64,000 nt of DNA, taken from positions 62,001 to 126,000 of the forward strand of contig NZ_VJZP01000001.1 of the NCBI RefSeq assembly GCF_007097265.1. The letters run 5' to 3'. Each line of letters opens with the position of its first letter. Position 1 is the first letter of the stretch. Shown one piece after another: positions 11,288-16,215 of the stretch. Made by a program: the position numbers and the translations under genes. A model generated the notes under the pieces. The model worked only from the letters and a program-made list of their open reading frames with translations. It was not told where the DNA came from and ran no database searches. The DNA is from Flavobacterium gawalongense (GTDB lineage: Bacteria; Bacteroidota; Bacteroidia; Flavobacteriales; Flavobacteriaceae).

Positions 11288-11691
11288 GCAGAGAACCCAT
11301 TTTATGAAGTAAAATGGTGTGAATCGCTTATTCCGAACTTGTTTCGGAATATCCAAAATACTAAGAGGCTGTCCACATCGGGCAGCCTTTTTTTGTTTAG
11401 GAGCAAAATGATTGGTTTTCATAAGAACGCTCTGTCCTGCTGTCCATTGCAATCCACGCTGATTGCTTCGTTCCTCGCAATGACAGCGCGGGATTTCCAT
11501 TGCCATCAGGGCTATTTAGAGTGTTTTTGTTTTCAAAATAATGTTTATCAAAACCTTTCAAACCAGTTCACTTATTAAATAATCCTTTTAACTATTTGTA
11601 AAGAATTATTTATATATTTGAATTATAACAAAGTATGATAAACGAGTTACAGGAAACCTTTGAGCTACACGGAACGTTGAAAAAACAGAAT
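11288..11691. other. Intergenic region with terminator and a dispersed repeat
   Basis: Holds the htpG terminator, then the 24-mer GATTGCTTCGTTCCTCGCAATGAC (split as GATTGCTTCGTTCC / TCGCAATGAC) at 11461-11484. I recall this sequence being scattered in many Bacteroidota genomes. It is followed by CCATCAGGGCT, which also occurs at 6912-6922. A TATATTTG box precedes the next gene. No gene is seen. Confidence 0.6.
11366..11394 (+). terminator. Rho-independent terminator of htpG
   Basis: A 9-bp stem with one G-U pair (11366-11374 with 11380-11388), loop ACATC, then a run of seven T. Confidence 0.85.
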
Positions 11692-13041
11692 ATGAAGAAC
11701 ATATTTTTACTTTTATTACCAATAATTTCTATCGGACAAGTAAAATTGCCGACAATTCCACAACCAACACAGTTTACGAATTACAACAACCAAAACTGGT
11801 CTAATCCAAACAATAATATTCTAAAAGCACTAAACCCAATGGATATAATTTATGGAAAAGATGAACAACAAAGAATTCAACAACAAAACCAACAAATAAT
11901 ACAAGAAACTCAACAAAGAGAAAAGCAAAAAGAAACTCAAATGCGTGAAATTTACACAGACATTAACCAATCAAAATCAGACATCAATTATAATCTTCCG
12001 AGTTTCTCAAACGTAAAAGGAACAGAACAATACAGAAACGTTTACGAAAAAATGCTAACGCTAAACATTGAAAACTATTCCGTAAAAGATTTAAATTTTG
12101 AAATTGAAAACGCTTATCTTGAAAACAAAGAAGACAAAGCGGAATTCGACCAAATCATAAAAAATTCAGGCGATTATATTCTTGCCAAAATGAAAGAACT
12201 GAAATACGATACCCAAAGTAATGTTGCCAAAAACTATATGCTTTTTCAATTCTTTTCCGAAAACTTAACTCTAAAATCAAACGGACTAAAACACACACCT
12301 TTCAAATATGATTTTGTAGATTATATGGGAAACAAAGATTGGACGAAAATGTTTGTGTCTAAATTATTGAAAACCAAAACAGGCCAATGTCATTCAATGC
12401 CGTTACTCTATTTAATTCTTGCCGAACAAATTCAGGCAGAAGCCTATTTGTCCTTTTCTCCAAATCATTCTTTCATAAAATTTAGAGATAAAAACAACAA
12501 ATGGTATAATATCGAACTCACAAATGGAATGTTTACCGCTCCATCATTTTTAATAAATTCGGGTTACATCAAAGCCGAAGCCTTACAAAATCACATTTAC
12601 TTACAAAATCTATCAAAACAAGAATTATTTTCAGCATTTTATGTAGATTTGGCTAACGGCTATATTCATAAATTTGGTTATGATGATTTTGTAGAAAAAG
12701 TAACCGACAAAGCATTAGAATTATATCCAAATAATGTAAACGCTCAAATGATAAAAGCCAATTATTCCGCAATTCGTTTTGAATTTGTGGCAAAACAATT
12801 GGGAATTAACCCAAGAGATAATAAACAATTACAACATATAAAAGGCTACCCAGATACAGTTGCATTACTGCAAGAAACCAATACACAAGGCAAAAAAGTA
12901 GAACAATTAGGCTATACAGAAATGCCAGCCGAAGCCTACGAAAGTTGGTTAAATTCTCTAAAAGAAGCCAAACGCAAACAAGAAAACGAAACATTAAACG
13001 CCCAATTTAAAGGAACAATTATCAAGACACTTAAAAATTAA
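11692..13041 (+). CDS. secreted transglutaminase-like protein, paralogue A
   Basis: Exported protein of 449 residues. I chose the ATG at 11692 because it gives signal peptide MKNIFLLLLPIISIGQ; an ATG at 11635 would bury it. A Gln-rich linker (about 60-100) precedes a core with Cys233 (GQCHS), His259 (PNHSF) and Glu275 (NIELTNG). This order and context (small-residue-Cys, P-x-H, W-x-x-E/D-x-x-x-G) resemble transglutaminase-like or SirB1-type (Transglut_core2) folds. A TPR-like helical tail follows. It is paralogous to the next gene with identical Cys-His-Glu spacing (26 and 16 residues). It is first of a four-gene run, 2 bases ahead of the next ORF. Catalytic activity is inferred. Confidence 0.7.
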   Translation: MKNIFLLLLPIISIGQVKLPTIPQPTQFTNYNNQNWSNPNNNILKALNPMDIIYGKDEQQRIQQQNQQIIQETQQREKQKETQMREIYTDINQSKSDINYNLPSFSNVKGTEQYRNVYEKMLTLNIENYSVKDLNFEIENAYLENKEDKAEFDQIIKNSGDYILAKMKELKYDTQSNVAKNYMLFQFFSENLTLKSNGLKHTPFKYDFVDYMGNKDWTKMFVSKLLKTKTGQCHSMPLLYLILAEQIQAEAYLSFSPNHSFIKFRDKNNKWYNIELTNGMFTAPSFLINSGYIKAEALQNHIYLQNLSKQELFSAFYVDLANGYIHKFGYDDFVEKVTDKALELYPNNVNAQMIKANYSAIRFEFVAKQLGINPRDNKQLQHIKGYPDTVALLQETNTQGKKVEQLGYTEMPAEAYESWLNSLKEAKRKQENETLNAQFKGTIIKTLKN

Positions 13042-13043
13042 AG

Positions 13044-14087
13044 ATGAAGAAAACAACTTTTATAATTTTACTAATACTATTTTCAACTTTTTGTGCTACC
13101 GCACAAAATCAAGAAAAACTATTTGAGCAAAGCTACGCTTTGCTCAATAGTATGCTTGTTAATGAAAATAGCTATAGTTTCAAAAAGGCGGTTTTCTCAG
13201 TCGAGAATACTTATTTAGACAATAAATTAGACACTATTGACTTCAATCGTCAGATCAAATTTTTAACTCATTTAAGTAACTCATTAATCAAAGATCGATT
13301 TTTAGCTTATCTCGAAAAAGACAAACCAACGGTTAACAAATGGGCTTCGGTATATCAAATAATGTGCGACACCATCCCGCTCAACATTAATGATACCATT
13401 TATAAATATTCGCCTTTCGGCTATGATTTTAATGATATTTTCGGACACGAAACAAGAGAAAATTTATTTGTTTCAAAATTGCTTTACACCCGAAAAGGTA
13501 ATTGCCATTCATTACCTTATTTATACAAAATTCTTTGCGAAGAATTAGGAGTACAAGCCAATTTGGCACTCGCTCCCAATCACGTTTATATCAAACACAA
13601 CAGCAAAAAAGACGGTTGGTATAATACGGAACTTACAAGCGGAATTTTCCCGATTGATGCTTGGGTAATGGCTTCGGGCTATGTGCATTTAGATGCCATT
13701 TCAAACGGCGTTTATATGAAAGCCTTGAATAATCGGGAAAGTATTGCACTTGTTTTACTCGATTTGGCAGACAATTACGATGCAAAATTCCCCAATAATG
13801 ACGGCACTTTTATTCTCAAATGTTGCAAAACCGCTATCAAGGAATATCCCAATTTTGCATCCGCTTTAATCTTAAAAGCCGAAACTCGTTACAAACAAAT
13901 TGAGCAAATACAAGACAAAACCAAGTGCGATTTAGAGTTTAGGGAATTAGAAAAACAATATGCACATATTCACGAAATCGGTTACCGCAATATGCCCGAA
14001 AATATGTATCTCGAATGGCTAATCTCTTTAAAAACAGAAAGAAATAAATACGAAAACAAAGCATTAAAAACAATGAGCAAACATTAG
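13044..14087 (+). CDS. secreted transglutaminase-like protein, paralogue B
   Basis: Exported protein of 347 residues with signal peptide MKKTTFIILLILFSTFCATAQ. It aligns by eye with the preceding gene over the core and tail: Cys154 (GNCHS), His180 (PNHVYIK) and Glu196 (NTELTSG), then a helical, TPR-like region (AIKEYPNFASALILKAETRY). Paralogue A's Gln-rich linker is missing here. Duplication followed by divergence is likely. It is two bases downstream of paralogue A and four bases upstream of the RHS-core gene, so the three are surely co-transcribed. Possible roles are processing or modification of the neighbouring RHS product. That is inference from position. Confidence 0.7.
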   Translation: MKKTTFIILLILFSTFCATAQNQEKLFEQSYALLNSMLVNENSYSFKKAVFSVENTYLDNKLDTIDFNRQIKFLTHLSNSLIKDRFLAYLEKDKPTVNKWASVYQIMCDTIPLNINDTIYKYSPFGYDFNDIFGHETRENLFVSKLLYTRKGNCHSLPYLYKILCEELGVQANLALAPNHVYIKHNSKKDGWYNTELTSGIFPIDAWVMASGYVHLDAISNGVYMKALNNRESIALVLLDLADNYDAKFPNNDGTFILKCCKTAIKEYPNFASALILKAETRYKQIEQIQDKTKCDLEFRELEKQYAHIHEIGYRNMPENMYLEWLISLKTERNKYENKALKTMSKH

Positions 14088-14091
14088 TATT

Positions 14092-15147
14092 ATGAGTAAA
14101 AAACTGTATTACCTATTCCTTTTTATCTTTTCTTTTTCTGTGCTTTCAGCACAAGAAAAACTATCAAAAGAAGAAAAAGCAAGACGAGAAAAAAACATCC
14201 AAGCAGGAAATCCTTTTACGCAATTTGGCTACAAAGCCAAAATTGCGACATTAAGCCAGGGTAAATATTTAGAATTTCACGATCTTGATAGTATTGTAAC
14301 AATCGGTACAATTCGTTGGCACGTTTACAAGAACGAAATCGTTGGGCGAATTGTACAAGACAGTTTAAATCCCGATGCCCAACCAATCGGAGATAGAGTT
14401 GGGCGTTGGATTTCTCCAGACCCTTTGAGTGAGGAATTCCCGAGTTGGTCGCCTTATACTTTTGTTAATAATAATCCATTGAGATTTAATGATCCTACAG
14501 GTATGGCAGCGGAAGATGTAATGCCTCCTGATGATTATTTAATTAAACAAAATGGCATTATTGAAGTAACTAAAACAAATGATAAATTTGATAGATTTTC
14601 CATTGAAAATAAACAAGGAAAAATAGAGTCAATTACTCAAATTAATAAAAATGAAAATGGGCTTCTTCAACTTCCCTCTTCAATTAATTTTAATTCAAGT
14701 GATTCTAATTCATCATTTTCATTAAGTGTAAAAGAAGGAAATGAATATAGATCATATATTAGAGGAGACGCTGCGGCTGCTTTGTTTGGGGCAGCTTCAC
14801 AAGCAAATTTCAAAGATATAGGAGTTGTTGGTTTTAGTCTATCCGATGGTAAATCTCCTGCACCAAGTACCTCACATAAACTTGGAAAAAATGGAGATTT
14901 AAGATATTTAAATACAAATAAAAAAAGTGCTTCCACTAATATTAGGAGTTCCAATTTCGATGTTACTAGACAATCCACTTTCAATGAGGGATTATATAAA
15001 TATGGCTGGAAAGATATGATTTCAGAACGATTTGGAAACGGCAATTTATTACCTCATACAAGTTCTTCAATTGAACGTAATATTCATTCAGACCACACTA
15101 CACACCTTCACTTACAAGGGTTTAATCCGAAAATAATTAAAAAATAA
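14092..15147 (+). CDS. short RHS-core protein with predicted LAS-type zinc peptidase C-terminus (candidate toxin)
   Basis: Exported protein of 351 residues with signal peptide MSKKLYYLFLFIFSFSVLSAQ. Residues of about 95-137 are an RHS repeat-associated core (RVGRWISPDPL ... NNPLRFNDPTG), but no RHS repeats precede it. The variable part after DPTG ends in a pattern typical of LAS metallopeptidases (M15/M74): His262-x6-Asp269 in SHKLGKNGDLRY, then His338-Leu-His340 in THLHLQGF. Such enzymes cut peptidoglycan peptides. RHS core plus variable toxin end is the logic of polymorphic toxins, here miniaturised and carrying its own Sec signal. No T9SS sorting domain is seen. Zinc-peptidase assignment rests on motif spacing only. 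Confidence 0.7.
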   Translation: MSKKLYYLFLFIFSFSVLSAQEKLSKEEKARREKNIQAGNPFTQFGYKAKIATLSQGKYLEFHDLDSIVTIGTIRWHVYKNEIVGRIVQDSLNPDAQPIGDRVGRWISPDPLSEEFPSWSPYTFVNNNPLRFNDPTGMAAEDVMPPDDYLIKQNGIIEVTKTNDKFDRFSIENKQGKIESITQINKNENGLLQLPSSINFNSSDSNSSFSLSVKEGNEYRSYIRGDAAAALFGAASQANFKDIGVVGFSLSDGKSPAPSTSHKLGKNGDLRYLNTNKKSASTNIRSSNFDVTRQSTFNEGLYKYGWKDMISERFGNGNLLPHTSSSIERNIHSDHTTHLHLQGFNPKIIKK

Positions 15148-15152
15148 TTAAA

Positions 15153-15842
15153 ATGAAAAAATATATTATCTATTTATTTATTCTAATTTTGACGCAAAGT
15201 CTGAAAGCTCAAAATGGAGAGATAATTTCAAAAGGAGTGTTGTATTGCAAAGAAAAAACAATATTTATTTTACCAGATTCTATTTCTATTTTCAATAAAA
15301 ATGGTTCTTTAAATGCTAAATTATTAAAACAAAATGAAGTTATTAATATTCATTATTTTGAAAATAAAATCGATTTAAAAAACAATAAAACTTTAAAAAA
15401 AATATATCCTTATTACTATAATGATAATTCAAAATATAATTCCCCAATCCCAAATATAATTATTCGTGCATATTATCCTGATTATGGAGTTTTTGTTATT
15501 GATGCAAATAAATCTAACGATAATAAATATGAGGTTTATATAAACGGCGAATGGAAAATAATAAAAGATAATAATCTGCTATATAAAAAGTGGGGAGAGT
15601 TTATAAAGGATGTATTAATTAAATTACCAGACAATATTAGTTTACATTCCCAAAAAAATACTAAATCAAAAAAAATAAAAACCCAAAAAGATTTAAGCTA
15701 TAGAGTTCTTGAAGTGGAAGGAGATTGGATAAAAATTGAATGCAATAAAAATTGCGAATATTGTAGTTATAAACATAAAAAAGGTTGGGTAAAATGGAAA
15801 AATGGTAATCAACTAATAGTTTATTTATATTACGTTTGTTAA
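15153..15842 (+). CDS. secreted SH3-like protein, candidate immunity partner
   Basis: Protein of 229 residues with signal peptide MKKYIIYLFILILTQSLKAQ, so it is predicted periplasmic. Residues of about 150-225 resemble a bacterial SH3-like fold: the run through LSYRVLEVEGDWIKIE is followed by KKGWVKWKNGNQLIVYLYY. It contains a C-x3-C-x2-C cluster (CNKNCEYC). It starts five bases after the RHS-core gene and shares its very AT-rich composition. A periplasmic partner encoded directly downstream of a predicted peptidoglycan peptidase is the expected place for an immunity protein, but nothing in the sequence proves this role. No family name recognised for the N-terminal half. Confidence 0.6.
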   Translation: MKKYIIYLFILILTQSLKAQNGEIISKGVLYCKEKTIFILPDSISIFNKNGSLNAKLLKQNEVINIHYFENKIDLKNNKTLKKIYPYYYNDNSKYNSPIPNIIIRAYYPDYGVFVIDANKSNDNKYEVYINGEWKIIKDNNLLYKKWGEFIKDVLIKLPDNISLHSQKNTKSKKIKTQKDLSYRVLEVEGDWIKIECNKNCEYCSYKHKKGWVKWKNGNQLIVYLYYVC

Positions 15843-16215
15843 TCTAGCTTTAGATCTAAGCAGTTATTAAAACAAAATTTTGAATAAACTGCAAAAGTGA
15901 ATTGAAAAGAAACAGACTACCGATACAGAAAAGCTTCCTGTAATAGGCTTCCTGTAATAGGCGTTTTGATATAGTGGGATTTTAGTGGAATTGCCGTTTC
16001 ACATCACGTTTTCGTTAAACAGAAAATACTCTGTTCCGAAATCCCTCAGCTAGCGAGATCGCAATATCTAAAGGTTAAGGAATAATCTCCATGATTTTGT
16101 CAATTCCGACGAAGGAGGAATCTCAACAAACGTGAGCAACAAACAGAGATTCCTCCTTCGTCGGAATGACAAATAAACTTAACTTAACTTAACAAAATAA
16201 ATAAATACAAATAAA
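15843..16215. other. 373-bp intergenic region with repeats
   Basis: No gene is seen. It contains two tandem copies of CTTCCTGTAATAGG (about 15936-15963), a 22-bp perfect inverted repeat (16103-16167, listed separately) and short AACTT/CTTAA tandem units near 16176-16192. Confidence 0.7.
16103..16167. repeat. 22-bp perfect inverted repeat, dispersed arm
   Basis: The left arm 16103-16124 (ATTCCGACGAAGGAGG then AATCTC) is the exact reverse complement of 16146-16167, with a 21-nt loop. The same 22-mer recurs singly at 52330-52351. The arms extend as TGTCA/TGACA with a one-base bulge. Confidence 0.85.

Follow-up and report, generated by a model that had tools for sequence, protein, structure and literature searches.

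Full-size RHS/YD toxins have an RHS core, a variable toxin tip behind it and an adjacent immunity gene, are associated with transglutaminase-like domains behind a signal peptide, and in some cases start with a transglutaminase domain that is inactive (Zhang et al. 2012, PMC3482391). Sec-exported polymorphic toxins also include MafB of Neisseria, with its downstream immunity gene mafI (PMC4287609), and the TANFOR toxins of Bacteroidetes (PMC7073777). The locus described here consists of four genes (g1-g4) of Flavobacterium gawalongense in a stretch of 64,000 nucleotides (the window, positions 62001-126000 of contig NZ_VJZP01000001.1, in a genome of 4.02 Mb). It shares with full-size RHS toxins the core, the variable tip, a likely immunity gene next to it and the association with exported transglutaminase-like parts, but lacks the YD repeats and the shell; in place of the degenerate fused domains described for the full-size proteins (PMC3482391), it has two free-standing transglutaminase-like proteins in which a Cys-His-Glu triad is invariant. 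Like MafB/MafI, it would combine a Sec-exported polymorphic toxin with a downstream immunity gene (PMC4287609); TANFOR toxins come from the same phylum and are likewise Sec-exported and polymorphic, but are large, have another N-terminal domain (none is listed for g3) and are enriched near substrates of the type IX secretion system (T9SS) (PMC7073777). The locus probably encodes a Sec-exported polymorphic toxin in which a mini-RHS carrier with two partners, g1 and g2, bears an exchangeable tip predicted to be a LAS-fold peptidoglycan peptidase, with g4 as the likely periplasmic immunity protein. Its parts are as follows.

11692..13041, + strand: g1, exported transglutaminase-like protein of 449 aa, partner 1 of the carrier; catalytic-type triad Cys233-His259-Glu275
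13044..14087, + strand: g2, exported transglutaminase-TPR protein of 347 aa, partner 2 of the carrier; catalytic-type triad Cys154-His180-Glu196
14092..15147, + strand: g3, 351 aa, carrier plus exchangeable tip
14092..14517, + strand: constant carrier of g3, with signal peptide, conserved domain of ~80 residues and mini RHS core up to NDPTG
14518..15147, + strand: exchangeable tip of g3, predicted LAS-fold zinc-peptidase-like domain
15153..15842, + strand: g4, exported small protein of 229 aa, likely immunity protein of the tip

Much of the original prediction, which had been made from the DNA letters alone, agrees with this layout. The recomputed positions of the open reading frames (ORFs) give the spacings of 2, 4 and 5 bases between the four same-strand genes that it contained, and the signal peptides that it read on all four proteins are recognizable as hydrophobic N-termini by eye and, for g2-g4, also by a hydropathy rule (the longest ORF of g1 begins at 11635, and the ATG at 11692 yields the signal-peptide-like N-terminus, as judged by eye). 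The RHS core that it saw in g3 is a match of residues 103-138 to the NCBIfam family Rhs_assc_core (TIGR03696; 33.3 bits vs a cut-off of 32.5) that spans profile positions 42-76 of 76, that is, the C-terminal half only. Repeats and shell are absent, as it held: no RHS repeat family is found in g3 at E <= 1 in the Pfam scan, and only ~100 residues precede the core, so that the protein is named here RHS-derived or mini-RHS rather than a full RHS protein. At the same threshold, no Pfam family of any kind is found in g3, hence no MafB N-terminal domain. The N-terminal domain of MafB differs from that of g3, and MafB is not known to have transglutaminase-like partners or an RHS core.

The constant part of g3 is well delimited. 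Most of the best 120 of its 689 database homologues (some of which are found via tip or core alone) stay in register over the first ~136 residues and then diverge, with common landmarks in most of those listed, namely RW at ~103 and DPTG or DPDG ending at ~136; conversely, seven homologues (P0005, P0007-P0010, P0012, P0013) share the tip and differ in their N-termini. In an alignment of 137 carrier rows, N40, K58, Y59, I83, D110, P111, Y122 and G137 are invariant and D134 is nearly so; in RHS toxins, self-cleavage is performed by the aspartyl protease of the core, but g3 has no shell. Transglutamination of a conserved carrier glutamine is not favoured: Q37 is 89% conserved and is replaced by Glu or Leu in several loci.

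The carrier does not travel alone. When the four proteins were mapped by tblastn on 33 fetched loci, the carrier was immediately preceded by g1 and g2 in 26 of the 28 carrier-holding loci examined (14 from one locus set, in which the contig end truncates g1 of L046, 11 from another, and the window), so that the arrangement is not accidental. The two carriers without an adjacent pair (L089 and L090) belong to a genome, G573, that has the pair elsewhere (L088). Among 398 Flavobacterium genomes sampled, the g2 protein (E <= 1e-30) and a full carrier, defined as a match starting at residue <= 3 and reaching residue >= 138, are encoded by one identical set of 16. Weaker carrier matches, mostly to the RHS core among the matches listed, occur in 180 other genomes of this sample, none of which has g2 at E <= 1e-30; those of longest coverage, again among the matches listed, start at residue 6 (G558) and residue 8 (G598). 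Four weak, partly full-length matches without g2 (G558, G598, G657, G041) correspond to the RHS core of RHS genes that look ordinary, and the stretches around them, three of the four being short because of a contig end, contain no relative of five transglutaminase-like queries. In a phylum-wide sample of 395 genomes, a g2-type protein (E <= 1e-20) was detected in 7, including that of the window, and the other 6 all have a mini-RHS gene in the same cluster. Beyond the order g1-g2-carrier, two further arrangements were seen: g1-[carrier-immunity]-g2, with the cassette in between (L119, L120, L121), and a single transglutaminase gene with a divergent carrier (L122, L123, L124 and L094, the last in the genome of the window). 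This divergent sibling (contig G000:C3, 8025-10028, - strand) combines its one transglutaminase-like gene with a mini-RHS-like protein of 345 aa in which a GHSHGG lipase-like motif is discernible by eye, and has two small exported-like proteins downstream. Comparison of the loci shows that g1, g2 and the carrier are inherited as one unit, which recurs across Bacteroidota, and makes a strong case that the g1/g2 pair is dedicated to the carrier.

The two partners are themselves divergent. In the Pfam scan, Transglut_core2 (PF13369) scores 19.5 bits (E 7e-4) with g1 and 23.2 bits with g2, against a cut-off of 23.5, and 31 of 32 relatives match this family at E <= 10, which together with the catalytic triad places them among transglutaminase-like proteins. 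In g1, the Cys, His and Glu are invariant among the rows that reach the region (26 rows, one truncated), and the three residues are invariant in g1 and g2 alike, down to the divergent single-transglutaminase homologue in L094; the acid is Glu rather than Asp. Hence the two transglutaminase-like proteins of the original prediction stand as far as family and triad are concerned, but g2 is modelled as a menin-like transglutaminase-TPR protein and not as a plain transglutaminase: in a fold comparison, its predicted structure is closest to menin, the comparison being informative where a sequence-profile search of solved structures with g2 gave nothing meaningful. The menin profile PF05053 is absent among the 25 Pfam families listed for the 32 relatives, and g2 is therefore not filed as a menin despite the fold of the model. 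From menin and the PF13369 proteins, g1 and g2 differ in being exported bacterial proteins with an invariant Cys and without a menin Pfam match. The database homologues of g2 number 2479, of which 120 were listed. One locus (L121, 8449-9621 of the reversed stretch) contains a g2 homologue with a carrier-like N-terminus (AQNPYESIG), as if the starts of carrier and partner had been swapped.

Under the proposed mechanism, Sec would take all of g1-g4 into the periplasm. There, the conserved segment of the carrier would be bound by the g1/g2 pair in a groove like that of menin and cut, or trans-amidated, at the Cys-His-Glu site of the pair, which would take over from outside the task of the closed RHS shell by which full-size Rhs proteins cleave themselves. 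The released tip would then act in the envelope of neighbouring cells, with g4 protecting the producer, and the mini core would be retained as a recombination seam for tip exchange. Processing of the carrier by the pair is plausible. It is also possible, if rather doubtful, that g1 and g2 do not process the carrier but, as a peptide-binding scaffold or chaperone, hold or anchor it at the cell surface, the triad being kept for binding. Zhang et al. (2012, PMC3482391) proposed that the inactive transglutaminase domains at the N-terminus of full-size RHS toxins serve in surface anchoring by binding peptides, and menin, to which the g2 model is closest, is described as a scaffold that lacks the cysteine in humans (PMC10318531). 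However, the Cys, His and Glu of both partners are retained without exception as far as L094, unlike the degenerate triads of the fused domains.

In contrast to this constancy of carrier and partners, the tips vary. The tips of 134 carriers fall into 45 sequence clusters (BLAST, E <= 1e-5, at least 60 residues), which is a low count because the linker behind the core merges some unrelated tips, for example, that of the window with the Tox-MPTase2 tip of L085. A Pfam search (E <= 0.01) of 137 of the 151 carrier proteins (P0001-P0013 and P0105 left out) recognized Toxin-JAB1 in 8, Tox-MPTase2 in 5, Peptidase_M91 in 3, Tox-URI2 and Tlde1 in 2 each, and Tox-REase-9, Ntox44, LHH and HNH in 1 each. 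Pairwise distances across 22 of the 26 pair loci (L046, L048 and L091 are incomplete, and L086 is nearly identical to L084) are correlated at 0.84-0.89 within the g1/g2/carrier unit, compared with 0.31-0.35 with the tips; of 2000 locus permutations, none reached the observed correlation for any of the three unit pairs, and 0 to 3 did for the tip pairs, so that the tips retain some signal of ancestry. The mode of exchange is suggested by G573, where a tip with its immunity gene begins within the core, without the N-terminal part of a carrier (L088, 10772-12071), and the same module is present on a complete carrier (L089, 12994-14291), with 93% identity over 1300 bases; carrier copies within this genome are 90-96% identical in DNA. 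Such an orphan module with a matching full-carrier copy indicates that the mini core is the likely seam of exchange. Several carriers are arrayed at three places of this genome (L088, L089, L090), together with orphan tips and small genes for exported proteins that occur repeatedly. The g3 tip and g4 would form a mobile toxin-immunity module that is swapped on the g1/g2/carrier module. Of the four-gene cassette originally envisaged, the g1-g2-carrier part, whose gene order holds across Bacteroidota, is conserved, but a fixed four-gene unit is rejected, tip and g4 being swapped among loci.

The tip of g3 is predicted to be an enzyme that cuts the cell wall. The H-x6-D ... H-x-H pattern that had been noticed at the C-terminus of g3 is present as H262-x6-D269 and H338-x-H340, with a further H335, and this metal motif is invariant in 10 of 10 tip sequences. 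The LAS fold suspected at the outset is recovered in the predicted structure, which resembles the zinc peptidase MepA in fold comparison; as with g2, a sequence-profile search of solved structures yielded nothing meaningful. No Pfam M15 or M74 profile matches any of the 10 tips at E <= 10, and the tip is therefore called LAS-like without assignment to M15 or M74. With MepA (M74) and other LAS peptidases, it has in common the predicted fold and the motif, and it differs from them in the lack of a Pfam family match and in serving as an exchangeable C-terminal tip. It is predicted to be a zinc peptidase that targets peptidoglycan. Because MepA and similar LAS enzymes are housekeeping hydrolases, tip and g4 could in principle be a housekeeping cell-wall enzyme with its inhibitor, the varied tips being assorted exported enzymes rather than weapons. 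This is very unlikely given that the 45 tip clusters are exchanged on one carrier and include several named toxin families, among them nucleases, that the tip is rare (in a class-level sample of 395 genomes, 5 have it, including that of the window, with 2 of the 5 being weak or broken pieces), and that in L097 it belongs to a protein that follows a PAAR protein, and in L096 and L107 it lies near DUF4280 genes. The tip and g4 pair is also found on ordinary RHS chassis.

The SH3-like end once predicted for g4 does not hold up as a firm assignment and was dropped, SH3_3 giving a weak hint only (E 0.047, 14.3 bits vs a cut-off of 27). It has 17 homologues, three invariant cysteines and a further one that is nearly invariant, and its GC content, 22.2% vs 34.7% for the window, suggests recent acquisition of the immunity gene. 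A g4 homologue follows a close tip on a foreign chassis in L034 (39% identity) and L096 (44% over 131 residues), and five g4 homologues lie on contigs equal in length to those of five tip homologues, from which they are inferred to be the same contigs; behind more distant tips (L097, L098, L106, L107) lie genes for lipoprotein-like proteins that show no similarity to g4. An ORF lies within 120 nt of the carrier in 34 of 35 carrier genes or pieces, and 31 of these 34 neighbours have a signal-peptide-like start; among comparable neighbours from other parts of these loci, such a start is seen in 36 of 80 (Fisher p 2.5e-6, by a hydropathy rule and with some loci being close relatives of one another). 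Among relatives across the phylum, the neighbour is exported-like for 6 of 8 additional carriers. The partner is exported for 6 of 7 tips that Pfam recognizes as JAB or peptidase domains (L038, L039, L044, L045, L085, L089, L095; the exception, L038, has no close gene behind the tip, and the tip match of L089 is below cut-off), and not exported for all three of Tox-URI2 (L082), GIY-YIG (L119, below cut-off) and Ntox33 (L121, where the partner is a DUF4279 protein), in a comparison with few cases in which the tips of most loci are unrecognized and intracellular action of Ntox33 is assumed. The Ntox44 tip of L095, with an exported-like neighbour, was left out of this classing. The pattern fits the compartment of the tip, as expected of immunity proteins; g4 is likely the periplasmic immunity protein of its tip, and a polymorphic toxin with a likely immunity gene has strong comparative support. 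A system directed at eukaryotic hosts or predators instead of bacteria, toward which the several metallopeptidase tips might point, such types also occurring in host-directed effectors, is hardly probable in view of these same neighbours: the near-universal adjacent ORF, a likely immunity gene with an export pattern mostly matching known tip types, makes sense mainly if the target is also present in the producer. Least credible is the view of the genes as decayed remains of full-size rhs genes or as silent cassettes that such genes donate. The orphan tips without a carrier in G573 and the interrupted carriers (L048 and one G573 copy with a stop) might speak for it, but most examined carriers are intact ORFs with a signal peptide and a core ending at ~136, and carrier and partners are conserved while tips change.

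With regard to the export route, the window's genome has no match to VipB (PF05943), the one gene family searched for a type VI secretion system, and delivery by that route was rejected. The T9SS sorting domain TIGR04183, the only type of sorting domain considered, is matched 15 times across the genome, 14 of these above the cut-off, but not in g1-g4, and export through such a tail was likewise discarded.

The surroundings of the cassette include repeats. Just 3' of it, at 16095-16170 of the window, lies a near-perfect palindrome (RNA fold -46.3 kcal/mol, z -9.65) that looks like a small mobile or REP-type (repetitive extragenic palindromic) repeat and is dispersed genome-wide, 57 segments matching a 171-base query; 5' of it, ~25 bases at 11461-11486 are repeated elsewhere in the genome (15 segments matching a 171-base query). 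In several Flavobacterium genomes (L039, L042, L043, L084, L086, L087), the cassette is located downstream of a gene of ~1000 aa, which we take to be DNA polymerase III alpha; cassettes with different tips thus seem to have used a single insertion site repeatedly.

No description of mini-RHS carriers with separate transglutaminase-like genes was found in the titles and abstract openings of the open-access literature searched. A recent classification calls the menin fold solely eukaryotic (PMC10318531), and the g2 model would give this fold a bacterial setting. One may speculate, with little confidence, that there is a Sec-dependent class of Bacteroidota toxins in which a menin-fold cysteine enzyme pair matures a mini RHS carrier and replaces the RHS shell, eukaryotic menin being a catalytically dead offshoot of this family of toxin-handling proteins. 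If the proposed reading is true, the locus would represent a new polymorphic toxin chassis that does without repeats and, as far as could be seen, without an injection machine, and with a LAS-type toxin tip that has no matching Pfam family. Both g3 and g2 have many database homologues, and g1 and g2 offer a defined enzyme pair the role of which is open to single-residue tests.
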